DNA from: Acidimicrobiia bacterium
Lineage (GTDB): Bacteria > Actinomycetota > Acidimicrobiia > Spongiisociales > UBA11373
DNA length: 64,000 bases
Assembly: GCA_040902765.1 (NCBI GenBank)
Contig: JBBDWO010000026.1
Span: 1 to 64,000 of the forward strand
Direction of reading: 5' to 3'
Shown one piece after another: positions 9,906 to 21,565 of this stretch. The first letter of the stretch is position 1. Each line of letters starts with the position of its first letter. Below the pieces are notes generated by a model. That model was given only the letters and a program-made list of their open reading frames with translations. It made no database searches and was not told the DNA's origin. Made by a program: the position numbers and the translations under genes.

Positions 9906-10781
9906 TTACCCGAGCGTGACCCCCAACCCCTTTGCCTCCGCCGCTTCGAGCGCCGCCATGCCGGCGGCGACGTCCTGGCTGGCGATGCCTACCGACTTGA
10001 AGAAGGTGATCTCGTCGGCGGTGGTGCGTCCCTTCTCGCGACCGTGGATGAGGTCGGCCATCGTGGTCGACGGATCGACGCCCGCCTGGAGGAGGTCTCC
10101 GGCTTCGGCGAGTGCGGCCTCGATGTCGTCGACCACCACCCGGGCCGCTCGCACAGTGTCGGGGGGTATCTCGCACATCTCAGGGGTGAAAGCGCCGACA
10201 GCGTTGATGTGGGTGCCCTGTCTGACCGCATCGGCGGCGAACAGCGGCTCTCGGGACGGTGTGGCCGTCGACACCACATCCGCATCCGACACGGCATCGG
10301 CGGCTCTATCGACGGCGGTACCGCCGATCCGCTCGGCGAGGGCTGCGGCATTGGCGCGGCTCCGGCTCCACACGAGCACGTCGTGAATCGGACGCACCTC
10401 CTTGACCGCCATCACCTGGTCGTAGGCCATCGCCCCGGCACCGAGCATCGCCATCGTCCGGCTGTCGGGCCGGGCGAGATACCGGGTGGCAAGCCCGGCG
10501 CCAGCCGCGGTCCGGATGGCTGTGAGGGTCGGCCCATCGACGAGTCCCCGGCAGGCGCCTTCGTCGTCGAACACGGCAACAATGCCAAACGGCTTGCCGG
10601 GGACGGTGGACACCACCTTGACCCCGGTTGACGACCCTACCCGCCCCGACATGAAGAGCGCTACCCCCAAGAGGGTGCGCAGCGGCGTTTCTCGATCGTC
10701 GGAGAAGGCGGAGACCATCGCCTCGATGGCGGCGGACATCGACAGGGCTTCACGGGTCGCTTTGGCGTCGAGGTAGCGCAT
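9906..10781 (-). CDS. Ornithine cyclodeaminase / mu-crystallin family protein
   Basis: A 291-residue NAD(P)-dependent protein. It has VKVVSTVPGKP with the family Lys at 55, a conserved VDGPTLTAIRTAA segment and the dinucleotide loop LGAGAMA at 113-119. Members include ornithine cyclodeaminase, alanine dehydrogenase and ketimine reductase; the substrate cannot be assigned. It is somewhat shorter than the usual 310-340 residues. Its first 78 codons are duplicated at about 80% identity at 12363-12620, where the rest of the gene is missing. Confidence 0.85.
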   Translation of the reverse strand: MRYLDAKATREALSMSAAIEAMVSAFSDDRETPLRTLLGVALFMSGRVGSSTGVKVVSTVPGKPFGIVAVFDDEGACRGLVDGPTLTAIRTAAGAGLATRYLARPDSRTMAMLGAGAMAYDQVMAVKEVRPIHDVLVWSRSRANAAALAERIGGTAVDRAADAVSDADVVSTATPSREPLFAADAVRQGTHINAVGAFTPEMCEIPPDTVRAARVVVDDIEAALAEAGDLLQAGVDPSTTMADLIHGREKGRTTADEITFFKSVGIASQDVAAGMAALEAAEAKGLGVTLG

Positions 10782-10918
10782 ACGGGGACGCTACCCCGCG
10801 CCGAGTCCCGGCTCTTGCGTAAGGGGGTGGTAATCGGGGCGCGTCCTGTGACACAGTCGGCTTCACCTGCGATGGCTGAGCGAGTAGCCTTACTAATCAC
10901 AATATGTAAGGAGACGAG

Positions 10919-11167
10919 TTGGACTCCGTGGCGAAGATCACATCGAAGGGCCAGGTGACGGTTCCAAAGGCAGTGCGTGACGCCTTGGGGATCGAACGAG
11001 GCGACACCATTGTCTTCCGGGTTGAGGGCAACCGTGCGGTCGTGGCCAAGACACCGCATTTCCTCGACCTTGCCGGGGCGATCGGCGTGCCTGCCGCAAA
11101 GCGCAACGTCGCCTGGGACGAGGTGCTGCGACAGACGAGGACGGATCGGGCGAAGACGCGCCGGTGA
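10919..11167 (+). CDS. vapB: VapB-type antitoxin (AbrB/MazE fold)
   Basis: An 82-residue protein with a SpoVT/AbrB-type swapped-hairpin DNA-binding domain (KITSKGQVTVPKAVRDALG) and a C-terminal tail likely to wrap the toxin. The start is TTG at 10919, supported by AAGGAGA at 10908-10914; a GTG at 10928 is the alternative. It overlaps the PIN toxin gene by 4 bp (GTGA). Antitoxins of this sort usually autoregulate their own promoter. The pair sits between a complete ornithine cyclodeaminase-family gene and its truncated copy. Confidence 0.88.
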   Translation: MDSVAKITSKGQVTVPKAVRDALGIERGDTIVFRVEGNRAVVAKTPHFLDLAGAIGVPAAKRNVAWDEVLRQTRTDRAKTRR

Positions 11168-11556
11168 CCGCGTTCGTGGACACGAACATCTTGATCCGCC
11201 ACCTAACGGGCGATCCACCGGAAGCGGCCGCCCGAGCGACCGCGTACCTGCGGAGCAGCCCGACGCTGCTGCTGACCGATGTGGTCGCCGCCGAAACGAT
11301 CTTCGTCTTGGAGTCTTACTACGAGGCGCCGCGGAACCAGGTTGCCAACGCGTTGCGCTCGCTGCTGGCGTTCGAGACGGTGCTGTGCGTCGATACAGCA
11401 CTGCTGCTGCGTGCCGTCGAGGTGTACGAGACCGACCGCATCGATTTTGCCGAGGCGTACCTGGTGGCATGCGCTGAGACCACCGGAGTAAGCCGCATCC
11501 TCTCGTTCGATCGATCCCTGGATCGAGTCGGCACGGTCACCCGCGTGGAGCCGTAG
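11164..11556 (+). CDS. vapC: VapC-type PIN-domain ribonuclease toxin
   Basis: A 130-residue PIN-domain protein. The acidic metal-binding residues are visible: Asp6 in FVDTNIL, Glu44 in VVAAETIF, Asp94 in DRIDFAEAYL, and Asp116 in ILSFDRSLD. VapC toxins cleave tRNA or rRNA and are held inactive by the cognate VapB. The start GTG at 11164 overlaps the vapB stop. All catalytic positions are intact, so the toxin is probably functional. Confidence 0.9.
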   Translation: MTAFVDTNILIRHLTGDPPEAAARATAYLRSSPTLLLTDVVAAETIFVLESYYEAPRNQVANALRSLLAFETVLCVDTALLLRAVEVYETDRIDFAEAYLVACAETTGVSRILSFDRSLDRVGTVTRVEP

Positions 11557-11663: not shown

Positions 11664-12362
11664 TCAGCGTGGCAGTACTGTCCAGGGTTGACAGGCCTGG
11701 TAGTCGATCAGGCCGAGAATGTCGTCTCGCGTCGGCGCCGACTCGGTGAGCACTCCCAGGTCGCGGAGGCACCGTTCCGCCTCGGCGTACCACAGTGCAA
11801 GGTCCGACTCTGTCGGCGCCCGGATGTCGTGCCACCGGCGATACACCGGGTCAAGGAGCCGGGCCTGGCAGTCGTCGGCGATGGCCAAGTGGTGCGCCTC
11901 TTCCTCAGAGCTCGTGCATTCCGGAACCCGCATCCCGTAGGTGAGGAACTCGCGGGGGTGGTATCCCGGGATCACGATGAGGCCAGTTCTCAGATCATCT
12001 GCGTGGAACGGGCCGTCCACCCTGAACACTGTGTGTGTCTCCACGCACGCGATTGTGTTGAGAACCGCACGTTCGTAGTCGGCGAAGGTCACGTGTTCGG
12101 GGTTGTCAACTCTGGGCGGGAGCAGATCGTCGAATCTCGAGTCCGGCGAGTCGTCGAAGCTTGAGGGCACGTAGTTGTTCGTGGCAACAGTCTCAGAGGT
12201 TGGCCCCGGGACCGACGGGTCCGCCGTTCGGTCCGGCGGGGGTGGGGCGGTCTCAGAACACGCCCCTATGAGGGTGACCGCCACCGCAACGGCCGCTATC
12301 GCCGTGCGTCCGCCGTACCGGTACGCGGGGTCGTTCAGCCTCTCTTGTGGACTCCCTCTCAC
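11664..12362 (-). CDS. Lipoprotein of the island family (L1)
   Basis: A 232-residue predicted lipoprotein with signal peptide and lipobox IGAC, then a Pro/Thr-rich stretch. The C-terminal domain is related to the B proteins of this island: FADYERAVLNTIACVE, RVDGPF, DDCQARLLDP and YAEAERCLRDLG. I chose GTG 12362 because GGAGG lies six bases upstream. The same frame stays open to 12620 only because it runs into the truncated copy of the neighbouring cyclodeaminase gene. It is divergent in sequence and opposite in strand to the A/B cassettes. Function unknown. Confidence 0.75.
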   Translation of the reverse strand: MRGSPQERLNDPAYRYGGRTAIAAVAVAVTLIGACSETAPPPPDRTADPSVPGPTSETVATNNYVPSSFDDSPDSRFDDLLPPRVDNPEHVTFADYERAVLNTIACVETHTVFRVDGPFHADDLRTGLIVIPGYHPREFLTYGMRVPECTSSEEEAHHLAIADDCQARLLDPVYRRWHDIRAPTESDLALWYAEAERCLRDLGVLTESAPTRDDILGLIDYQACQPWTVLPR

Positions 12363-12620
12363 CTCGACCTCCGAGCGGTGCAGGTCTCGGCAGGCACCCT
12401 CGTCGTCGAACACCGCTACGACACTGCACGGCTTTCCGGGGACGGTTGACACCACCTCGATGCCGGTCGAAGAGCCGACCCTCGCCGAAATGAACAGCGA
12501 TGACCCGAGCAGGTTCCGCAACGGCGTCTCGCGGTCGTCGGAGAGAGCCGGCACCATCGCCTCGATCGCCGCAGACATCGACAGGGCTTCACGGGTGACG
12601 TCAGCGTCGAGGTAGCGCAT
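12363..12620 (-). pseudogene. Truncated ornithine cyclodeaminase-family gene (5' fragment)
   Basis: Translates as MRYLDADVTREALSMSAAIE and onward, matching the first 78 residues of the 9906-10781 product with roughly 15 differences. Similarity stops at DDEGAC-R, where the lipoprotein ribosome site and start begin. The bases upstream of both ATGs are also similar (GGA/CGCTACCC). The fragment is in frame with lipoprotein L1, so either a fusion protein is made or, more likely, the fragment only donates a promoter and leader. Confidence 0.8.
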
Positions 12621-12943
12621 CGTGGAACGCTACCCAACGGGCCGCGTGCCTCGGCGGCCATTCGGTAACCCGCTAGGCGGATCGAGCTTCCCCCGTTGGG
12701 CCAGCGACCGCGCGCAAAGAAGGAGCTCTCCGTCTTGCGTATCGGGTTGTGAGCACCCACCGAGCGTGAGAGCGCAGCGGCGGGAAGATGAGGGACCAGA
12801 GATCGTCTCGGGTCCACCTGTCACTCCAGCCTCACTCTGGTCCAGGGGAACGAATCAGTGAGGCTGTTGCGCGCACAAGCATTGTCAGCGGCTTGGGTCG
12901 CCACGATGCTCCCCTCCTTGAAGCGTGCCGGGAGCGGATTGTG
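12621..12943. other. Intergenic region with no recognisable gene
   Basis: About 320 bases between the truncated cyclodeaminase copy and the first A/B leader. Short open frames on both strands lack coding character. A run of ten or more G lies just downstream at 12956-12965. Nothing else is recognised. Confidence 0.5.
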
Positions 12944-13005: not shown

Positions 13006-13398
13006 ATGCATGCAAGGACTGCTGATCGGACGACGATTCTGATCGTCATCTTGGTGGCGACACTTGTATTGGGTGTCGCCTTTTGGGCGGCGCCGGATGC
13101 CGGAGCCTCGGGGAGCCACGGACAGACTTGGAGCTTTACCCAGAGCGGGGTCGTGGCGAAGTTTCGTGGCTATCACTACAACAGCGCGTACGACCAGCCG
13201 GGCGCATGGACAACCAACATCGACACGACTTGTTACGAGGCTGTGCGGTTGACTCACTCTCAGGCACAACTGGGCTGGTACTACGGGTATCCGACGGCCT
13301 ACTCCGCCATGGGTCCGGTTGGTGCCGTGACGGTTTCGAGCCTACATCGCGGGTGGCACTGTTTGAACGACGCAACAGCTACGTACACCCTCAACTGA
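13006..13398 (+). CDS. Small secreted two-cysteine protein A1
   Basis: A 130-residue precursor. Its signal peptide is predicted to be cut after GA at residue 34, leaving SGSHGQTWSFTQSG at the mature N-terminus. The mature part (about 96 residues) is rich in Tyr, Trp, His and Ser, with only two cysteines (76 and 119) that could form a disulfide. A1, A2 and A3 share GQxWSFTQxGxV, FRGYHY and VRLTHS. The ATG at 13006 has AAAGGAG seven bases upstream. Lipoprotein gene B1 follows after 19 bp. I recognise no known family. Size, secretion and a neighbouring exporter suggest an exported effector or surface peptide, but that is inference. Confidence 0.75.
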   Translation: MHARTADRTTILIVILVATLVLGVAFWAAPDAGASGSHGQTWSFTQSGVVAKFRGYHYNSAYDQPGAWTTNIDTTCYEAVRLTHSQAQLGWYYGYPTAYSAMGPVGAVTVSSLHRGWHCLNDATATYTLN

Positions 13399-13417
13399 CT
13401 TGGGAAGCGAGTAGGTG

Positions 13418-14038
13418 ATGGGATATCGCCACTGGTTGGCGTTCACCGTGGTCGTGCTGCTGGCGGGTTGCGGTGGTTCACCTGCTCCCGCAGTCTCTCC
13501 TATCTCGTCGATCCCGTTCGATGAGATCAGGTCGCCCCATTTCATCGGACCGGATGCCCTCGATCCGGGCCCGGATAGGGGTGGCCGCGCGCTCAAGAGC
13601 GAGGTCTTTGCGGATGGTGTGGTCAGGTTCGACGAGTACGAGCGTGCAATGGACGCATACGCGCAGTGCGTCCGCGAGGAGGGGTTCCCGGTGGATGGTC
13701 CGTCGGTGCAGAGTCCACAGGTGGGTGCCCTTATCGCGCCGGGTGAGGACCCCGGCGATCTGCTCATCGTATCGTTCCCTGGTGTGTTCGACGCCTCGGA
13801 GTCGGAGCGCTTGTCACTGGCCGACATTCGGTGCCAGGAGGAATGGCGGTATGCGATCGAATTCGTGTGGCGCGAGCAGAACCGAGCAACCGGGGAGGAC
13901 CTGCAGCGCTGGTTGGATAGGGCGTGGGAGTGTGCTCGGCTGCGGGGCTTCCCGCTGTCGGATCCGCCCACGGAGATCGAGGCCGTCATGTCGGCCCACG
14001 ACGGGTTCGCCGGTGATGGCTGCGTGCCCTGGGAGTGA
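13418..14038 (+). CDS. Lipoprotein B1, partner of A1
   Basis: A 206-residue lipoprotein with lipobox LAGC, a short linker ending in ISSIPFDEI, and a conserved domain. The domain contains DPGPDRGG, EVFADGVVRFDEYERA, CVREEGFPVDGP, CQEEW, WLDRAWECARL and a C-terminal DGCVPWE. Four cysteines outside the lipobox are conserved in B1-B4 and could make two disulfides. The ADGxVTxxE stretch vaguely recalls half an EF-hand, but key ligands are missing. GTG 13415 is an alternative start. Function unknown; pairing with a secreted protein suggests a receptor, chaperone or immunity role. Confidence 0.75.
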   Translation: MGYRHWLAFTVVVLLAGCGGSPAPAVSPISSIPFDEIRSPHFIGPDALDPGPDRGGRALKSEVFADGVVRFDEYERAMDAYAQCVREEGFPVDGPSVQSPQVGALIAPGEDPGDLLIVSFPGVFDASESERLSLADIRCQEEWRYAIEFVWREQNRATGEDLQRWLDRAWECARLRGFPLSDPPTEIEAVMSAHDGFAGDGCVPWE

Positions 14039-14113: not shown

Positions 14114-15148
14114 ATGACTCGTAGTCGGCTCGTTGCTCTCGTCGCTGTGCTTCTCGTGCTCGTCCCGGCGGCGGTCCTGGTGTGGGTTCGGCTCGGGGTG
14201 GAGGATCGCCTTGCCGGTCTGCACCAGGCCGCCCCGCCATTGGAGACGGTGGCGACGTTTCGTGAGGATGTTGGCCGTCAGCCGGTGAATGTGTCGGTGG
14301 TGTGGGGCGAGCCGCGGGTGGTGGTGGCGCCGTCGTGGTTCGGGTTGGTGACGGGGGTGATGGTTTCGGCGGGTGATGTGGTGGGTGATGGTGACTCGGT
14401 GGTCGTGGTGGATGGGGTGCGTCGGATGGCGGTGGCGTCGTCGGCGCCGTTCTATCGCCGGTTGGCTTCGGGGGATCGTGGCGACGATGTGGTGATGCTC
14501 GAAGAGGCGCTGGTGCGTCTCGGGTATCTGGCGACGGCGGGTGATGGGGTGGTTCGTCAGTCGATGCTGACGGCGGTGCGGGCGTTGGCTGTGGATTTGG
14601 GTGTGGTGGGGACGGTGTCGGGGTTCGATCCGGGGTGGCTGGTGTGGCTATCCGAGGACGGGTTCGAGGTGGCCGAGGTGGCGGTTGTCGTGGGGATGTC
14701 GGCCCCGGGCCAGGGCGCGCCGCTGCTGCACGGTCCGCGCCGCATTGCTGAGATCACGGTGGCGTCGTTCGACGGTGCCAGTGTGTCGTTGCCGGGGTCG
14801 TGGGAGATGGAGGTTGGCGGCGTGGTGGTGGGTTTGGAGGACGGTGTCCCGGACCCGGCTGGTGTGTTGATGCTGTCGGCGGCGTTGGATCCGCTGACCG
14901 ACGTGGTGTCCGGGGTGGTGCGCCTCTCGGTGCCGCGGGTGGTGATGGATGTCCCAGCGGCGGCCGTGGTGTCGGGTGGCGACGGGTTGGTGTGTGTGTA
15001 TGTGCCCGACGGTGACGGGTTTGTTGCGGTGCCGGTGGTGTTGGGGTCGGGTCGGGCGGGGACGGTCGAGGTGGTGTCGGGTCTGGCGGACGGCGACGTG
15101 GTGTTGGCTAACCCTGCCGATGTGCTGGCAGCGCCGGCATGTCGCTGA
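14114..15148 (+). CDS. ABC exporter periplasmic adaptor with peptidoglycan-binding-like domain
   Basis: A protein of about 344 residues with one N-terminal membrane anchor, then a HlyD/MacA-like adaptor. It has a lipoyl-like stretch (VTGVMVSAGDVVGDGDSV), a PG_binding_1-like three-helix insert (LASGDRGDDVVMLEEALVRL) and a C-terminal beta domain. In actinobacteria such adaptors pair with a MacB/LolD-type ATPase and an FtsX-like permease, as here. It overlaps the ATPase gene by 10 bp. I chose ATG 14114; TTG 14108 is possible. Val codons are dominated by GTG/GTC and the region reads more G-rich than its surroundings. Confidence 0.8.
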   Translation: MTRSRLVALVAVLLVLVPAAVLVWVRLGVEDRLAGLHQAAPPLETVATFREDVGRQPVNVSVVWGEPRVVVAPSWFGLVTGVMVSAGDVVGDGDSVVVVDGVRRMAVASSAPFYRRLASGDRGDDVVMLEEALVRLGYLATAGDGVVRQSMLTAVRALAVDLGVVGTVSGFDPGWLVWLSEDGFEVAEVAVVVGMSAPGQGAPLLHGPRRIAEITVASFDGASVSLPGSWEMEVGGVVVGLEDGVPDPAGVLMLSAALDPLTDVVSGVVRLSVPRVVMDVPAAAVVSGGDGLVCVYVPDGDGFVAVPVVLGSGRAGTVEVVSGLADGDVVLANPADVLAAPACR

Positions 15149-15789
15149 TCGCCGAAGAGGTCAGCCATGCGTATCGGCCCGGCGAGTGGGTGCTGTCGGG
15201 GGTGAGCCTCAAGGTGGGGGCGGGCGAGTCGGTGGCGCTGCTCGGTCCGTCGGGGTCGGGCAAGACGACGCTGCTGTCGATCTTGGGTTTGTTACAGACA
15301 CCGACCCACGGTCGTCTCGTGATCGACGGGGAGGCGCGGTCGCCGCGGCGAGCGGGGCGGCTTCGGTCGGAGATGTTCGCCTGGGTGTTCCAGACGGTGA
15401 ACACGCTGCGCCGCCGTACTGCCTTGGACAACGCCGCGGTGGGGCTGTTGGCGCGGGGGGTGGGTCGTGGAGAGTCGAGCCGACTCGCCGCCGAGGCGCT
15501 GGCTGCGGTGGGTCTCGGCGAGATGGGCGCGGTGCCGGTGGAGCGGCTGTCGGGCGGTGAGCTGCAGCGGGTGTGTATTGCGAGGGCGGTGGCGGCGCGG
15601 CCACGGTTCCTGCTGGCGGACGAACCGACCGGCCAGTTGGACCGCTCCACGTCGGATCGGGTCCTCGACGCGTTGTGGGCGGCACGACTACCCGAGACGG
15701 CGCTGGTGATCGCTACCCATGACCTCGACGCCGCTAGTCGTTGCGATCGGGTGATCCGGTTGGTGGATGGGCGGGTGGTGGCAGCATGA
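15139..15789 (+). CDS. ABC transporter ATP-binding protein (MacB/LolD type)
   Basis: A 216-residue ATPase with all motifs intact: Walker A GPSGSGKTT (residues about 36-44), Q-loop VFQTVN, signature LSGGELQRV, Walker B FLLADEPTG, D-loop LD and H-loop ATHD. It belongs to the LolD/MacB group that powers lipoprotein or peptide export without the substrate crossing a membrane channel. It overlaps both the adaptor gene and the permease gene (ATGA), so the three are one operon. Confidence 0.9.
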   Translation: MSLIAEEVSHAYRPGEWVLSGVSLKVGAGESVALLGPSGSGKTTLLSILGLLQTPTHGRLVIDGEARSPRRAGRLRSEMFAWVFQTVNTLRRRTALDNAAVGLLARGVGRGESSRLAAEALAAVGLGEMGAVPVERLSGGELQRVCIARAVAARPRFLLADEPTGQLDRSTSDRVLDALWAARLPETALVIATHDLDAASRCDRVIRLVDGRVVAA

Positions 15790-16874
15790 CCGGCTGGCGG
15801 CTGCGTGACGCGGTTGGTGAGGCGTGGCGGTCGGTGACCGCCGCGGTGTGGCGCACCGTGATGCTCATGTTGGTGATGGCGGGCATGGTCGGGGCGCTGG
15901 CGTGGTCGGAGTTGGCGACCACCGACCATGTGCTTGCCTTCCAGCGAGGTTTCGATGACCGCGGCGGGTGGGTGGTGGTGGCATCTGCGACCCGTGGCGA
16001 TCTCCCCGCGGACCGGTGTGTGTCGATCGCGTCGCAGCGTGGTGTGGTCTCGGCTGGGGCGATGACTCCGGGGCCGACGGTGCAGACCGCGGCGGCGCCG
16101 GGCACCCTGTTCCAGAGCGCATCGGCGACGGTGGGTGCGATCCAGCAGTGGGCGGCGTCGGCCCCGTCGTCGGCCGACCTTGCTGACGGGATCGTGGTTG
16201 GTTCCGCCGCCGCCAACGAGTTGGGCCTGGCTCCGGGGATGATCGTGACCGTGGACGTGGTCGGTGGGGACCAGCGGGTCGCTGCTGTGATCGATACTGA
16301 GGACCGCAACCCGTTTGTGGCCCGGTGGCTCATCCAGGTGGCGCCACCTGTCGGTGCCGCCAACCAGTGCTGGGTCGAGTTCGAACCCGGCACCGTCCCC
16401 GCCGGGCTGGGGGTGATGGAGGCCGTGTTCGCCGACCTGCGGCCCAACCTGGAGGTTCGCCGGTGGATCCGTCTCGACGACTTTTCCCGCGACCCGGTCG
16501 CTGAACTCGCCAATCGTCCCCAACGCCAAGCTTGGATACCCATAGGCATCGCCGCCGCCGTCTTGGTATGGGTGATCGTGTGGGCCCGCACCGCCGAGAT
16601 CGGCCTCTACCGAGCCGTCGGCACCCGCACCTCCACCCTGTGGCTCTTCGGCCAGTTCGAGGCGGTGTTCGTGCTCGTCCCCGCAGCCGCCGCCGGCTAC
16701 CTATGGGCAGTGGCCGCGCACGCCGCCACGGCCGATCGCCAGCCCGGCCTAGACCAACTCCTCATCGCCGCCCGTACCAGCCTCTCGGCCACACTCCTCG
16801 CCCTCATCGTCGCCCCCCTGGCCTGGGCCTGGTCAGGCCGAGGGCAAATCGCCGCCCAGCTCAAAGACCGATAA
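15786..16874 (+). CDS. FtsX-like ABC transporter permease
   Basis: A 362-residue membrane protein. One N-terminal TM segment (VMLMLVMAGMVGALAW) is followed by a periplasmic domain of about 200 residues and three C-terminal TM segments, the layout of MacB/FtsX permeases. It ends in APLAWAWSGRGQIAAQLKDR. That last stretch is repeated as a remnant at 18045-18116, showing that at least the 3' end of a second permease gene once stood before cassette 3. The leader of cassette 2 begins seven bases after the stop. Confidence 0.82.
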   Translation: MTGWRLRDAVGEAWRSVTAAVWRTVMLMLVMAGMVGALAWSELATTDHVLAFQRGFDDRGGWVVVASATRGDLPADRCVSIASQRGVVSAGAMTPGPTVQTAAAPGTLFQSASATVGAIQQWAASAPSSADLADGIVVGSAAANELGLAPGMIVTVDVVGGDQRVAAVIDTEDRNPFVARWLIQVAPPVGAANQCWVEFEPGTVPAGLGVMEAVFADLRPNLEVRRWIRLDDFSRDPVAELANRPQRQAWIPIGIAAAVLVWVIVWARTAEIGLYRAVGTRTSTLWLFGQFEAVFVLVPAAAAGYLWAVAAHAATADRQPGLDQLLIAARTSLSATLLALIVAPLAWAWSGRGQIAAQLKDR

Positions 16875-16880
16875 TGCCTG

Positions 16881-16937
16881 TTGACATGGCAGAAAGAAGG
16901 AGGAATCTCCTGATTATGGGCGTCTGACCGAAAGGAG
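16881..16937 (+). promoter_or_regulatory. Shared leader of A/B cassette 2
   Basis: TTGACA at 16881-16886 and the block GATTATGGGCGTCTGACCG from 16912, ending in AAAGGAG at 16931-16937. The spacing from TTGACA to GATTAT is 25 bp. The same block precedes A1 and A3. Confidence 0.6.
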
Positions 16938-16943
16938 CACGCG

Positions 16944-17342
16944 ATGCGTGTGGGAACGATCAGTCGGATGAGAAGGGGTGCGGCCGCGGCTGCGGCGCTG
17001 GCGCTGCTCGTCGTGGCGATTGGGTTCGTGCCACCGGCAGACGCCTCAGGAAGCCACGGTCAGAACTGGAGTTTCACCCAGGGAGGGATCGTCGGAACGT
17101 TCAGGGGGTACCACTACAACAGTGCGTACGACAACCCGGTGGCATACACCACTAACGTTCAATACACGTGCTACCAGGGGGTCAGGCTCACTCACAGTCA
17201 GTCGCAGATGGGGTGGAAGTACTCGGTTTATCCGCACACGTATGTCGACCAATATGGTCCCGTGTTCACGACCACGGTGTCGAGCCTGCATTACTCGCAG
17301 CACTGTTGGAACCTTGCCGGACTCACGCGGACGCTCAACTGA
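16944..17342 (+). CDS. Small secreted two-cysteine protein A2
   Basis: A 132-residue precursor with a basic n-region (MRVGTISRMRR), an Ala/Leu core and a predicted cleavage ADA|SGSHG after residue 34. The mature protein has cysteines at 76 and 121 and keeps the family motifs GQNWSFTQGGIVG, FRGYHYNSAYDNP, GVRLTHSQSQMGW and QHCWN. It is most similar to A3. It lies directly behind the ABC permease gene and 47 bp before B2. No known family is recognised. The transporter next to it could export it after Sec processing or respond to it; the sequence does not decide. Confidence 0.75.
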   Translation: MRVGTISRMRRGAAAAAALALLVVAIGFVPPADASGSHGQNWSFTQGGIVGTFRGYHYNSAYDNPVAYTTNVQYTCYQGVRLTHSQSQMGWKYSVYPHTYVDQYGPVFTTTVSSLHYSQHCWNLAGLTRTLN

Positions 17343-17389
17343 CTGCGGATCCGACGCATGCGAGTCCGCCACTTGAGGAGGGGTAGAGA

Positions 17390-18004
17390 GTGGTCGCGCT
17401 GACGGCTCGGTCCGCCATTGTCGCCTTGCTCCTCGCTGCCTGCGCGGGATCGCCACAGGTGTCGCCGATCTCTTCAACCCCGTTCGATGAGATACGGATT
17501 CCCCAGTTCACGGGCCCCGGGGCGTTGGATCCAGGTCCGGAGATGGGCGGACGTGCCTTGAAAGACGAGGTATTCGCGGACGGGATGGTCACGTTTGACG
17601 AATACGAGCGCGCCATGAATGCGTACGCGCAGTGCGTCCGCGACGAAGGGTTTGAGGTGGATGGCCCATTTGTGCAAAGTCCCCAGGTCGGGTACGCGTT
17701 GTCGCCGGGTGAGGATCCACGCAACCTTCTCATCGTTTCGTTTCCGGGGATTGACTCCGAACCGAAACGTGCACGCAATAGCGAGGTGGACCTGCGGTGT
17801 CAGGAGCAGTGGTCGTTCGCGATCGAGACCGTGTGGCGGGAACAGAACGCCGCGACAGGTGCCGAGCTGGAGGCGTGGCTGGAGAGAGCTTGGGAGTGCG
17901 CCCGCCAGCGGGGGACATTGCTGTCAGATCCGCCCACTCTGGACGAGGCCATGCGATCTGCCAATGCTGGTTTCGTAGGCGACGGCTGCGTGCCGTGGGA
18001 GTGA
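17390..18004 (+). CDS. Lipoprotein B2, partner of A2
   Basis: A 204-residue lipoprotein starting at GTG 17390, with GGAGGGG at 17377-17383 and lipobox LAAC. It carries the island motifs ISSTPFDEI, DPGPEMGG, EVFADGMVTFDEYERAM, CVRDEGFEVDGP, CQEQWSFAIE, WLERAWECARQ and DGCVPWE, with the four conserved cysteines. It is close to B3 and B4. The 3' flank (GAGACCGATTCGAA) resembles that of B4 (GAAACCGACTCGAA), so duplication involved whole units. Confidence 0.75.
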   Translation: MVALTARSAIVALLLAACAGSPQVSPISSTPFDEIRIPQFTGPGALDPGPEMGGRALKDEVFADGMVTFDEYERAMNAYAQCVRDEGFEVDGPFVQSPQVGYALSPGEDPRNLLIVSFPGIDSEPKRARNSEVDLRCQEQWSFAIETVWREQNAATGAELEAWLERAWECARQRGTLLSDPPTLDEAMRSANAGFVGDGCVPWE

Positions 18005-18044
18005 GACCGATTCGAAGGCAGCCTCTTCGCTAGCGGTCTGCGAC

Positions 18045-18116
18045 GTCATCGTCGCCCCCCTCGCCTGGGCCTGGTCAGGCCGAGGCAAAATCGCCGCGCA
18101 GCTGAAGGACCGGTGA
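18045..18116 (+). pseudogene. Remnant of the 3' end of an ABC permease gene
   Basis: Seventy-two bases, ending in TGA, that encode APLAWAWSGRGKIAAQLKDR. They match the last 23 codons of the 15786-16874 permease with two amino-acid changes and about five silent ones. The excess of silent change suggests the copy diverged as a working gene before the rest was deleted. Confidence 0.85.
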
Positions 18117-18135: not shown

Positions 18136-18190
18136 GTGACAGTTATAGGGGGGGCTAGCCTCCTGATTATGGGCGTCTGAGCGAAAGGAG
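18136..18190 (+). promoter_or_regulatory. Shared leader of A/B cassette 3
   Basis: GTGACA at 18136-18141, then GCTAGCCTCCTGATTATGGG and AAAGGAG at 18184-18190. The spacing from GTGACA to GATTAT is 23 bp, as in cassette 1. Confidence 0.55.
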
Positions 18191-18196
18191 CATGTG

Positions 18197-18589
18197 ATGC
18201 GTGTGGGAACGATTAGTCGGGTGCGGAAGGCTGCGGCCGCGGCGACGATCGCAGCAGTTGCTCTGGTGGTACTTCCAGTGAGCGCCCATCCAGCCAGCCA
18301 CGGTCAGAACTGGAGCTTCACCCAAGGCGGGATCGTCGGAACGTTCAGGGGATATCACTACCCGAGCGAGTACGACAACCCGGTCGCATGGACTTCGAAC
18401 ATCCAGGTCACCTGCGAGCAGAGAGTCCGCTTGACGCACAGTGCGACCCAGATGGCCTGGAAGTTCTCGGTTCACCCGCACACCTTGGTCGTCCAGTCAG
18501 GGCCAGTCGGGACGACGGTGGTGAGAAGCCACCATCAGTCGAGGCATTGCTGGAACCTTGTCCTCTCGGCGGTGCAGACACTCAACTGA
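18197..18589 (+). CDS. Small secreted two-cysteine protein A3
   Basis: A 130-residue precursor with an n-region (MRVGTISRVRK) almost identical to A2 and a predicted cleavage after VSA at residue 30. Mature motifs are SHGQNWSFTQGGIVG, FRGYHYPSEYDNP, VRLTHSATQMAWK and RHCWN. Two cysteines are conserved. I chose ATG 18197, six bases after AAAGGAG. B3 follows after 27 bp. Function unknown. Confidence 0.75.
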   Translation: MRVGTISRVRKAAAAATIAAVALVVLPVSAHPASHGQNWSFTQGGIVGTFRGYHYPSEYDNPVAWTSNIQVTCEQRVRLTHSATQMAWKFSVHPHTLVVQSGPVGTTVVRSHHQSRHCWNLVLSAVQTLN

Positions 18590-18616
18590 GCGCACACTTT
18601 GGAAGGCGGTTGCGGC

Positions 18617-19237
18617 ATGAGGGCGTCACGGCGCGGGTTGGTGGCTCTGCTTGCGGTGGTCGCCGCGGTGGGCTGCTCGGGTGAGGCGGGAAGTCCTGCG
18701 TCGTCCACACCTGGGGTGTCGCCGATCTCGTCGACACCGTTCGATGAGATCACGTTGGGTGTCGATCCGGGGCCCGATCGCGGTGGTGCGGCATTAAAGG
18801 CGGAGGTATTCGCCGACGGGGCGGTCACCTTCGAGGAGTATGAGCGCGCCATGCACGCCTATGCCCAATGTATGCGCGATGAAGGCTTCCAAGTCGATGG
18901 TCCGGTTCCTATGGGCCCCGAGGTTGGTGCAGCGCTGTCTCCGGGGGACGATCCTCGGAACTTTCTTCTGGTCACCTTTCCCGGGATCGTGAGTGAGGCG
19001 GAGGACCAGCGCAACAGCGAGGCCGACCTGAGATGCCAGGAGCAGTGGTCATTTGCGATCGAGAAGGTATGGGCGGAACAGAATGCAGCGACCGGGATAG
19101 AGCTTCAGGAGTGGCTGGAGCGGGCGTGGGACTGTGCCCGGCAGCGAGGCACGGTGCTCTCGGATCCTCCGACGGAACTCGAAGCAACACTCTCGGCGCT
19201 TGATGGGATGCATGACGGGTGTGTTCCCTGGGAGTGA
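18617..19237 (+). CDS. Lipoprotein B3, partner of A3
   Basis: A 206-residue lipoprotein with lipobox AVGC. The start ATG 18617 was chosen over 18599 because the signal peptide begins there and GGAAGGCGG precedes it. It carries the family domain: ISSTPFDEI, DPGPDRGG, EVFADGAVTFEEYERAM, CMRDEGFQVDGP, CQEQWSFAIE, WLERAWDCARQ and DGCVPWE. It lacks the short segment between DEI and DPGPD found in B1 and B2, a feature shared with B4. Confidence 0.75.
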   Translation: MRASRRGLVALLAVVAAVGCSGEAGSPASSTPGVSPISSTPFDEITLGVDPGPDRGGAALKAEVFADGAVTFEEYERAMHAYAQCMRDEGFQVDGPVPMGPEVGAALSPGDDPRNFLLVTFPGIVSEAEDQRNSEADLRCQEQWSFAIEKVWAEQNAATGIELQEWLERAWDCARQRGTVLSDPPTELEATLSALDGMHDGCVPWE

Positions 19238-19298: not shown

Positions 19299-19871
19299 CT
19301 AACCCTCCCAGGGGCGGCAGCCCATGGCTACCACTCTCGCCCAGTCATCCTCATGTAGCGGCGGGTCTGGAAGGTCGCTTCCCATTATGCGGGCACACTC
19401 CCATAGGCGTTCGAGCCACCCGGTCTTCTCCTTCTCAGAGGGCTGATTCAGGTCAAACCAGGCCATCTCGATTTGATGTAGCCACTGAGCGGTACACCGA
19501 TCCAACGTCTCCGCAACGCCTGGTGCTTCTTGAGCGGCGAAATGCAATGGACCGGGCGGATACCTGCCTGGGTGGGGGGGAACCTCGTAGGGACCCTCAA
19601 CGACATAACCGTCGCCTCGCACACATTCAACCGCCGCGAGCACCGCGCGCTCATACTCATCACGGGTGACATCGCAGTCGGCGAACACCTCTTCACGCAT
19701 CGCGATGCCGCCGATGTCGGGGCCCGGATCGTCGGGTGATGGCCTGCTGTTAATCAACTCGATACGTTCGCAAGAACTCAACTCCTCGGATGGCTCAGTC
19801 TGCGCGATCGAGGAGCAAGCCGTGGCTACGAACGCGAGGGCGACGAGCACTCGAGCAACCAAGTTCCACAT
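19299..19871 (-). CDS. Solo lipoprotein of the island family (L2)
   Basis: A 190-residue lipoprotein with lipobox ATAC. Motifs clearly related to the B proteins are DPGPDIGG, EVFADCDVTRDEYERAV, CVRGDGYVVEGP, WLERLWECARI and a C-terminal CRPWEG. AAGGAG lies upstream of ATG 19871 on the minus strand. It has no A partner and is divergently oriented from B4, sharing a 77-bp intergenic region with it. It has extra cysteines (SSCERIE, FADCDV) not found in B1-B3. Function unknown. Confidence 0.75.
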   Translation of the reverse strand: MWNLVARVLVALAFVATACSSIAQTEPSEELSSCERIELINSRPSPDDPGPDIGGIAMREEVFADCDVTRDEYERAVLAAVECVRGDGYVVEGPYEVPPHPGRYPPGPLHFAAQEAPGVAETLDRCTAQWLHQIEMAWFDLNQPSEKEKTGWLERLWECARIMGSDLPDPPLHEDDWARVVAMGCRPWEG

Positions 19872-19910
19872 GGAGGCTCCTTGACTCCCCTCTAACCGGG
19901 CGCGGTACCG

Positions 19911-19943
19911 TAGCCTCCGGATTATGGTCGAGCGGGAGGGAGG
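19911..19943 (+). promoter_or_regulatory. Degenerate cassette leader before B4
   Basis: TAGCCTCCGGATTATGG is closely similar to the block before A3 (TAGCCTCCTGATTATGG). It leads through GGGAGGGAGG straight into the B4 start, with no A gene between. This suggests a cassette that lost its A gene. Confidence 0.5.
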
Positions 19944-19948
19944 TCAGT

Positions 19949-20561
19949 ATGCCGTTGCGTCATCACGGCTTGGTCCTTTTGGTGCTGATGGGCTGCTCTG
20001 AAGGGTCTGGCGGCGCTGATTCGTCTACTCCGTGGTTGTCGCCGATCTCGACGACACCGTTCGATGAGATCACCCTGGATGTCGATCCGGGTCCTGATCG
20101 GGGTGGGGCTGCATTGAAGGCGGAGGTGTTCGCGGATGGTGTGGTCACGTTCGACGAGTATGAGCGTGCGATGAACGCGTACGCGCAGTGCGTCCGTGAA
20201 GAAGGGTTCGAGGTGAGGGGGCCGCTGACCTTCCCCACGGATGACGGAACCGCTGCTTTTAGGACCCGGTGAAGATCCACACGACCACCTCGTCGTTTGG
20301 TTTCCGGGGGTTACTGAGGAGCCGGAGTTGAGCCACCTCTCCGATGTGCAGTTGCGGTGTCAGGAGCAGTGGTCGTATGCGATCGGCTTCGTGTGGCGTG
20401 AGCAGAATCGGGCGACTGGCGAGGAGCTTCAGCGGTGGCTGGAGCGAGCGTGGGAGTGCGCCCGGCAGCGGGGTTCGGTGTTGTCGGATCCGCCGACGGA
20501 GATCGAGGCGATGATGTCGGCCTTCGACGGGACCCAGGACGGGTGTGTGCCCTGGGATTGA
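19949..20561 (+). pseudogene. Lipoprotein B4, frameshifted
   Basis: The first frame (19949-20272) gives signal peptide, lipobox LMGC, ISTTPFDEI, DPGPDRGG, EVFADGVVTFDEYERAM and CVREEGFEVRGP, then a premature TGA. The second frame takes over around GCTGCTTTTAGGACC and gives LLGPGEDPHDHL, CQEQWSYAIGF, WLERAWECARQ and DGCVPWD to 20561. Joined, the two make a normal B protein of about 205 residues. The site has a CTTTTA run, so a deletion, a sequencing error or recoding are all possible. All downstream motifs are preserved, so any inactivation is recent. Confidence 0.75.
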
Positions 20562-20699
20562 AACCGACTCGAAACCGCCTCCCCTCGGGCTCTCCGCCCC
20601 GTCATCGCCGCCGGAACTTGAAGGTCGGCTATTCGACAGTCTCGCAACTCAGAGGCGGCTGGTGTCCTGGACGGGGCAAGTGATCGAGAGGAGCGTGCG

Positions 20700-21272
20700 A
20701 TGCGTGCGGGCACGATCGCAATCGTGTTGGCTCTGGCGACCGCGGCCTGTTCGCTGGGCGACGACCCCGGGAGCGGCGACACCAGCATTCCGGCCGTTTC
20801 TGATCCTCGGGTGTGGGTACCGTCGTCGGAGGACTATCCCAGTGACTTCGATAGCATCCCGGCCGAGATCCTCGCCGATGGTGTGGTAACTCCTGCCGAG
20901 CTCGAGCGGGCAGTCCTTGCATCCTTCGCCTGTATGGAGGCGCGCGGCCTCGAGTTCGAACCAGAGATCAAGTACGGCGCCTCGGGCTGGATCGGGAGCG
21001 TCGGGTATTCGCTTCGAGCGGTTACCGAGGAGCAGCTCGAGGAACTGAGCGCCCTAGCCGCCGACTGCGAGGTACGGCTGACCGAGGACGTGTGGGAGGT
21101 GGTGAGGACGCAGATCGCGCAGCGTGATCAGGAGGAGCTGTTGCAGGAGGTGATCGCCTGCATGGAGTCGAGGGGTGTTGCCGTGAGTCTGGACGACTCC
21201 GCAGATGGCCCTTCCGGTCTGCACAGGCTCGCCCCAGAACACTTCGACTACTGCTGGTTCGCAGCGCATTGA
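20700..21272 (+). CDS. Distant solo lipoprotein of the island family (L3)
   Basis: A 190-residue lipoprotein with lipobox TAAC. The domain is a distant relative of the B proteins (EILADGVVTPAELERAVL, CMEARGLEF, CEVRL, CMESRGV). Its ribosome site and first codons (GAGAGGAGCGTGCGATGCGTG) copy those of A2 and A3 rather than a B gene: MRAGTIAI against MRVGTISR. It therefore looks like a recombinant of an A-type leader and start with a B-type body. It closes the island. Confidence 0.7.
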   Translation: MRAGTIAIVLALATAACSLGDDPGSGDTSIPAVSDPRVWVPSSEDYPSDFDSIPAEILADGVVTPAELERAVLASFACMEARGLEFEPEIKYGASGWIGSVGYSLRAVTEEQLEELSALAADCEVRLTEDVWEVVRTQIAQRDQEELLQEVIACMESRGVAVSLDDSADGPSGLHRLAPEHFDYCWFAAH

Positions 21273-21453
21273 AAACGCTCAGCGCCTATTGCTCGACACC
21301 ACAGGTCGCCAGGGCTTGCGGTGAGCGTTGAGCGACCTGTCCCACACTTCGATCCACCTGCTCGCGACGCGCTAACCCTCCCCCCTCCCCGCCTTCGGGC
21401 GGTACTCCCCCCGTCGGGGGGAGAGAGTCAGGAACCACGCGGCGGTCGGCGCT
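21273..21453. repeat. Intergenic repeats: degenerate AACGCTC element and GC-rich repeat copy 2
   Basis: A worn copy of the AACGCTC/GCGTTGA element spans about 21275-21335. The C/G-rich dispersed repeat (CTCGCGACGCG, CTCCCCGCCTTCGGGCGG, CTCCCCCCGTCGGGGGGAG) spans about 21362-21424. No gene is visible. Confidence 0.5.
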
Positions 21454-21565
21454 CCCCTGGCCCCTGGCCCCTGGCCCCTGGCCCCTGGCCCCTCGCCCCA
21501 CGTCCCTCGCCCCTCGCCCCTCGCCCCTCGCCCCTCGCCCCTCGCCCCTCGCCCCTCGCCCCTAA
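21454..21565. repeat. Heptanucleotide tandem repeat, 16 units
   Basis: Exactly 112 bases, 16 units of 7 bp. The first five are CCCCTGG; the unit then changes to CCCCTCG with a few variants. The array ends 9 bp before the start of the alpha-hydroxy-acid oxidase gene, leaving no room for a normal ribosome site. Confidence 0.85.

Follow-up and report, generated by a model that had tools for sequence, protein, structure and literature searches.

In the T6SS immunity arrays of V. cholerae, new modules displace the ends of resident genes, and homology-facilitated illegitimate recombination has been proposed as the mechanism (Kirchberger et al. 2017, PMC5361080). The esaG and tipC immunity families of the T7SS form tandem, non-identical paralogues, with homologous recombination between immunity genes (Garrett et al. 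2022, PMC9484751). A further system for comparison is the export ABC transporter of the lactococcin-972 type (TIGR03608).

The window analysed here, a 64,000-nucleotide stretch of an Acidimicrobiia genome, contains an ABC exporter flanked by one pair of genes, A and B, on its 5' side (A1-B1) and by two pairs on its 3' side (A2-B2, A3-B3), followed by more B-family genes. The features of the locus are as follows.

9906-10781, minus strand: flanking ornithine-cyclodeaminase-like (OCD-like) gene (PF02423, E 7e-51)
12388-12620, minus strand: second gene-end fossil, the first 78 codons of the flanking OCD-like gene, in frame before a B-family gene (within 11664-12620, minus strand)
13006-14038, plus strand: cassette 1, with A1 at 13006-13398 and B1 at 13418-14038 (A and B profile matches)
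14114-15148, plus strand: adaptor/membrane-fusion protein of the exporter (weak matches to PG_binding_1 and RND_mfp; its gene context recurs in relatives)
15139-15789, plus strand: ABC ATPase of the exporter (PF00005, E 5e-30; TIGR03608, 151.8 bits, cut-off of 254.85 not reached)
15786-16874, plus strand: intact FtsX/MacB-like permease, from which the fossil derives or with which it shares an ancestor (PF02687, E 2.7e-4, curated cut-off not reached; 62% identical to the permease of the nearest relative, G003)
16944-18004, plus strand: cassette 2, with A2 at 16944-17342 and B2 at 17390-18004 (A and B profile matches)
18005-18045, plus strand: DNA downstream of B2; the DNA after B4, from 20562 on, is its homologue
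18046-18056, plus strand: join TCATCGTCGCC, 10 of 11 bases common to the permease end (16804-16814) and the DNA after B4 (about 20601-20611)
18048-18116, plus strand: permease-end fossil, the final 22 codons and the stop (91% identity to 16806-16874; no start codon)
18160-18196, plus strand: A3 leader CTCCTGATTATGGGCGTCTGAGCGAAAGGAG, 34 of 37 bases identical to 16907-16943 (repeat families D9 and D13; common to the A2 and A1 leaders)
18197-19237, plus strand: cassette 3, directly 3' of the fossil, with A3 at 18197-18589 and B3 at 18617-19237 (profile matches)
19299-19871, minus strand: B-family gene (profile match)
19950-20561, plus strand: B4, frameshifted (profile match, split over two frames)
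20700-21272, plus strand: B5 (profile match)

A2 and A3 share 69% amino-acid identity, and B2 and B3 share 71%. The A proteins have a signal-peptide-like start and match no family in profile searches, bacteriocin families included; the predicted structure of A is of low confidence (pLDDT 48) and was not used. The B proteins carry a lipobox cysteine and four more invariant cysteines (five in all). The predicted structure of B is confident (pLDDT 83.5), with no family match and no structural match in the PDB at E <= 0.001. Going by gene order, we guess that A encodes a peptide or protein for export, and B a lipoprotein that partners it and may confer immunity.

Like the V. cholerae T6SS arrays (PMC5361080), the locus is a cassette array beside a secretion apparatus, with gene-end remnants between cassettes and an old gene end shifted downstream. 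Unlike those arrays, in which the displaced end is that of an effector, the displaced ends here belong to the exporter permease and to a flanking enzyme gene, and the functions of A and B are putative. The tandem non-identical paralogues and the recombination between blocks of high similarity are reminiscent of esaG and tipC (PMC9484751), but at the join described below the recombination is illegitimate and has brought in part of a different gene. With the lactococcin-972 type, the locus shares an ATPase that resembles the family (151.8 bits) and a small, here predicted, secreted protein with its own exporter. It differs in that the ATPase does not reach the TIGR03608 cut-off (254.85), none of the bacteriocin families matches A, and an adaptor with a PG-binding-like domain and the B lipoprotein are present.

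The 3' part of the array has further peculiarities. At 19900-20561, B4 is split over two overlapping frames, its 5' side is a stretch like an A-type leader with no A gene, and its 3' flank matches the 3' flank of B2. The start of B5 (20681-20760, GAGGAGCGTGCGATGCGTGCGGGCACGATCG) resembles the leader and start of A2 and A3 (0 of 500 shuffles), as though a deletion had removed an A gene from just past its start to a B gene. At 21440-21563, in the gap separating the array from the next gene, 7-base units (CCCCTGG / CCCCTCG) are repeated in tandem.

The permease-end fossil and its join

A direct-repeat scan pairs 16799-16870 with 18041-18112 at 89% identity. Using blastn against the organism's own genome (1.99 Mb), 18046-18112 aligns with the permease end at 91% over 67 bases (E 5e-21); the next-best match has an E value of 0.06, so the intact permease end is the sole other significant copy. 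At the protein level the permease matches 18021-18113 in frame and with no stop (E 8.5e-8). Seven bases differ within the 22 codons of the fossil. Specifically, six are silent third-position changes (intact/fossil: CTG/CTC, GGG/GGC, GCC/GCG, CTC/CTG, AAA/AAG and CGA/CGG), while one first-position change gives the single amino-acid difference (CAA, Q, in the intact gene; AAA, K, in the fossil). The stop codon differs silently (TAA/TGA). No start codon was found in the frame of the fossil, which is open from 17979, so the fossil is not a gene now.

DNA after B4 aligns with the 41-base stretch that separates B2 from the fossil. Without the join block, 4 of 1000 shuffles reach the alignment score; with the shared block included, none of 1000 does. 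The stretch TCATCG(T/C)CGCC is common to both parents at 10 of its 11 bases and lies exactly at the switch, and the score of the alignment between the permease and the DNA downstream of B4 is reached by 11 of 1000 shuffles. Permease homology upstream of 18046 (18021-18045) was considered and rejected, as it is at chance (416 of 1000 shuffles), compared with 4 of 1000 for the DNA downstream of B4.

The first-pass annotation had described the last 23 codons of a permease gene with about five silent and two amino-acid changes. The remnant before cassette 3 is real, in frame and 91% identical, and its changes are mostly silent, but it consists of 22 codons and a stop, with six silent changes, one amino-acid change (Q/K) and the altered stop. 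The second proposed amino-acid change (CTC, L, to GTC, V, at 18045-18047) lies outside the permease piece, on the side of the join that comes from B2. The G at 18045 is present in the DNA after B4 (CCGTCATCG at 20599) and absent from the permease (CCCTCATCG); the permease piece is therefore 22 codons with one amino-acid change.

From these alignments, DNA downstream of a B gene was joined to a permease end at short homology. In the T6SS-array model, one of the joins is illegitimate and has short or no homology, and the 10 of 11 shared bases agree with this. Tandem duplication, deletion after a larger duplication, or recombination of diverged versions of the locus would each leave the same join.

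Constraint and age at silent sites

The pattern of changes was compared with simulations under six mutation models, in which the intact copy was kept under strict purifying selection and the fossil drifted freely. For seven differences, free drift is expected to give a mean of about 4 amino-acid-changing codons, compared with the one observed, and one or fewer occurs in 1.1-2.1% of the free-drift runs (P 0.011-0.021 over the six models). Coding constraint on the fossil's past is moderately supported by this bias, which rests on seven sense differences in 22 codons. The earlier proposal that the remnant evolved under selection thus stands in that the two ends diverged, over few changes, as if both were coding; the results do not support a whole second exporter operon in this genome as the coding past.

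The similarity of the intact and fossil copies ends at the stop codon. The spacers beyond it (32 and 43 bases) are unalignable, with 357 of 500 shuffles scoring as well, and leader identity resumes at 34 of 37 bases. The spacer at the A leader of cassette 3 is more like that of cassette 1 than that of cassette 2. The spacer of cassette 2 may therefore have changed by a single event, which makes the spacer an imperfect control.

As a measure of age, we used the share of degenerate codons with identical amino acids that differ, for which independent draws from codon usage give about 0.6. The values are 6/19 for the fossil, 29/83 for A2/A3 and 79/131 for B2/B3. The fossil and A2/A3 have equal silent divergence (P 1.0), whereas that of B2/B3 is saturated (P 0.0004 compared with A2/A3, 0.025 compared with the fossil), and B2/B3 look older than both. 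Because the age of A matches that of the fossil while B is saturated, the permease tail, A3 and B3 are not one unit of one age. Between the permease and that of G003, 119 of 207 such codons differ; the divergence of the fossil and A3 is below this value, so their split is younger than that genus-level split.

The codon style of the permease changes along the gene. Its 3' part (16350-16874) prefers C-ending codons, with a G share of 0.22, while G-ending codons predominate (0.67-0.80) in the 5' part and in the genes for the ATPase, the adaptor and A2. The break near codon 190 has a log-likelihood ratio of 21.9, compared with at most 7.8 in 21 homologues, and the permease gene looks mosaic. A homologous anchor on the other side of the recombination event was looked for in this codon style and not found: the break itself was rejected as an anchor, since the fossil shares the 3' style (3/12 G-ending codons compared with 71/106 in the 5' part, P 0.004). 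The mosaic is thus probably older than the scar.

The second fossil and the related loci

A flanking gene has a truncated copy of a similar kind. Specifically, the direct-repeat scan pairs 10549-10796 with 12388-12635 at 79% identity, and the start of the OCD-like gene and its copy are 81% identical in amino acids (tblastn). The copy at 12388-12620, on the minus strand, lies at the opposite edge of the array and continues in frame into a B-family gene. It differs from the intact gene by 27 silent and 14 amino-acid-changing codons, and so few amino-acid changes occurred in 0 of 300 free-drift runs under each of five models. The silent pattern is seen more strongly in this comparison than in that of the permease fossil; translation of the fusion after the join could have constrained it, because the OCD fossil is in frame with the B gene. 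Truncated, displaced ends of resident genes, as in the T6SS arrays, are thus present twice: the permease end behind A2-B2, and the OCD start behind another B gene. A comparable scar from a non-transporter gene speaks against any special account built on a lost exporter. A MazE/PIN toxin-antitoxin pair (10919-11556) is located between the two OCD-like copies.

Single exporters with adjacent B genes were found at about 20 loci in Acidimicrobiia and Chloroflexi, and A genes are rarer. The commonest order is (A)-B-adaptor-ATPase-permease, sometimes permease-B-B. An ancestral unit of transporter plus A plus B, as suggested in the first-pass annotation, conflicts with this order and with the A1-B1-exporter order of the window itself, which is the commonest one. 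No tandem exporters of this type and no duplicated permease tail were found in the about 20 related loci, several contigs of which end close by; the complete second operon expected in relatives on the earlier reading was likewise not seen there.

In the nearest relative, G003, there is a single close exporter; B genes and a degenerate A lie on its divergent side. A second, distantly related exporter nearby has no convincing BLASTP similarity to the close one (best E 0.03). The A gene of the nearest relative (L056:11343-11567) survives only as its second half, which lies between two B genes. An alignment-based search of contigs with the permease yielded 11 loci in Acidimicrobiia/Actinomycetota and Chloroflexi, and a single-protein search of the same contig set gave no match. 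The A protein had no match in viral contigs and plasmids, and distant matches only in 395 genomes of the class.

Origin of the fossil and growth of the array

The explanation we prefer, with a probability of roughly 0.47, is that the fossil is a scar left when two diverged versions of the exporter-A-B region recombined illegitimately. It starts from what is seen directly: the join has two identifiable parents, the changes are mostly silent, the fossil and A3 match in silent divergence, and a second fossil exists. Version one would have supplied permease-A2-B2 and the start of the DNA downstream of B2, and version two the end of its own permease, followed by promoter, A3 and B3. The two would have been joined at TCATCG(T/C)CGCC, with the second permease surviving only as its final 22 codons. 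Because this end would come from a working permease, either the allele of another strain or a former copy here, it would differ almost only silently. The B gene added at the other edge of the array would carry the matching scar, the start of the flanking OCD-like gene. The second version would have resided in another strain and may have entered by homology-facilitated illegitimate recombination, as put forward for the V. cholerae T6SS arrays (PMC5361080), or by a single crossover; a circularised fragment integrated by one crossover would give the same arrangement. Counting against this reading are the small number of sense differences in the fossil, the homologous anchor that was sought in vain, the constraint that translation may have put on the OCD fossil after its fusion, and the likeness of the cassette 3 spacer to that of cassette 1. 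The fossil need not mean that a whole second transporter was once in this genome.

An unlikely alternative is simple tandem duplication, in which the permease end through A2 (and B2) was copied in place, via TCATCGTCGCC in the permease and TCATCGCCGCC after B2, and the copied end then drifted freely. It takes one step, accounts for the join exactly and agrees with the lack of tandem exporters in relatives. The amino-acid changes are nevertheless too few for free drift (P 0.011-0.021), and the OCD fossil is even less like free drift. An in-place duplication would also be expected to give equal silent divergence, whereas A2/A3 (29/83) and B2/B3 (79/131) differ (P 0.0004). It follows that B3 is not simply the second half of that duplicate, and a single in-place duplication of tail, A and B misfits the unequal ages unless the B gene was exchanged later.

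We consider it quite unlikely that the space between B2 and A3 once contained a second permease of full length, or even a whole exporter operon, that evolved under selection and was then deleted between short repeats. Such a permease would explain divergence that is almost only silent, and deletion between the DNA downstream of B2 and the second permease end would leave the same join. The scenario needs a duplication, long upkeep of a redundant permease and then a deletion; B2/B3 are too old for it, and an equal fossil of a non-transporter gene exists. Neither blastn against the organism's own genome nor protein-level searches found any piece of another adaptor or ATPase gene or of the body of a second permease. 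The former full second exporter, later deleted, that the first-pass annotation had proposed is therefore disfavoured: no other exporter piece was found, the about 20 related loci hold no tandem, G003 has a single close exporter, B2/B3 are older, and the OCD fossil is alike.

Finally, that the stretch is kept as working DNA or RNA before A3 (a terminator, regulator or recombination site) is highly improbable and was rejected, for although the fossil is better conserved than the adjacent spacer, its RNA fold is ordinary (z -0.8, compared with +0.65 for the intact copy), it contains neither a terminator nor a match to a sigma-70 promoter, A1 has no such stretch, and the changes fall on third codon positions, a bias not expected of a DNA element.

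A 22-codon scar by itself is a modest finding. Tentatively, and with odds well short of even, recombination between diverged versions may be how a little-known cassette system, whose exporter and B occur in Acidimicrobiia and Chloroflexi and whose A occurs in fewer, with a putative exported A and B lipoprotein, grows in general: by repeated splicing-in of diverged versions of its own locus, each leaving behind a dated scar, the end of a conserved gene beside it (that of the exporter or of an enzyme). If so, the order of acquisitions could be read from the silent sites of the scars. Gene-end scars would then show how paired-cassette arrays grow, with silent sites serving as a clock for each acquisition. 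The scar here comes from the exporter and not from a cargo gene, and with two flanking genes scarred, the array would, given strains, be a readable record.
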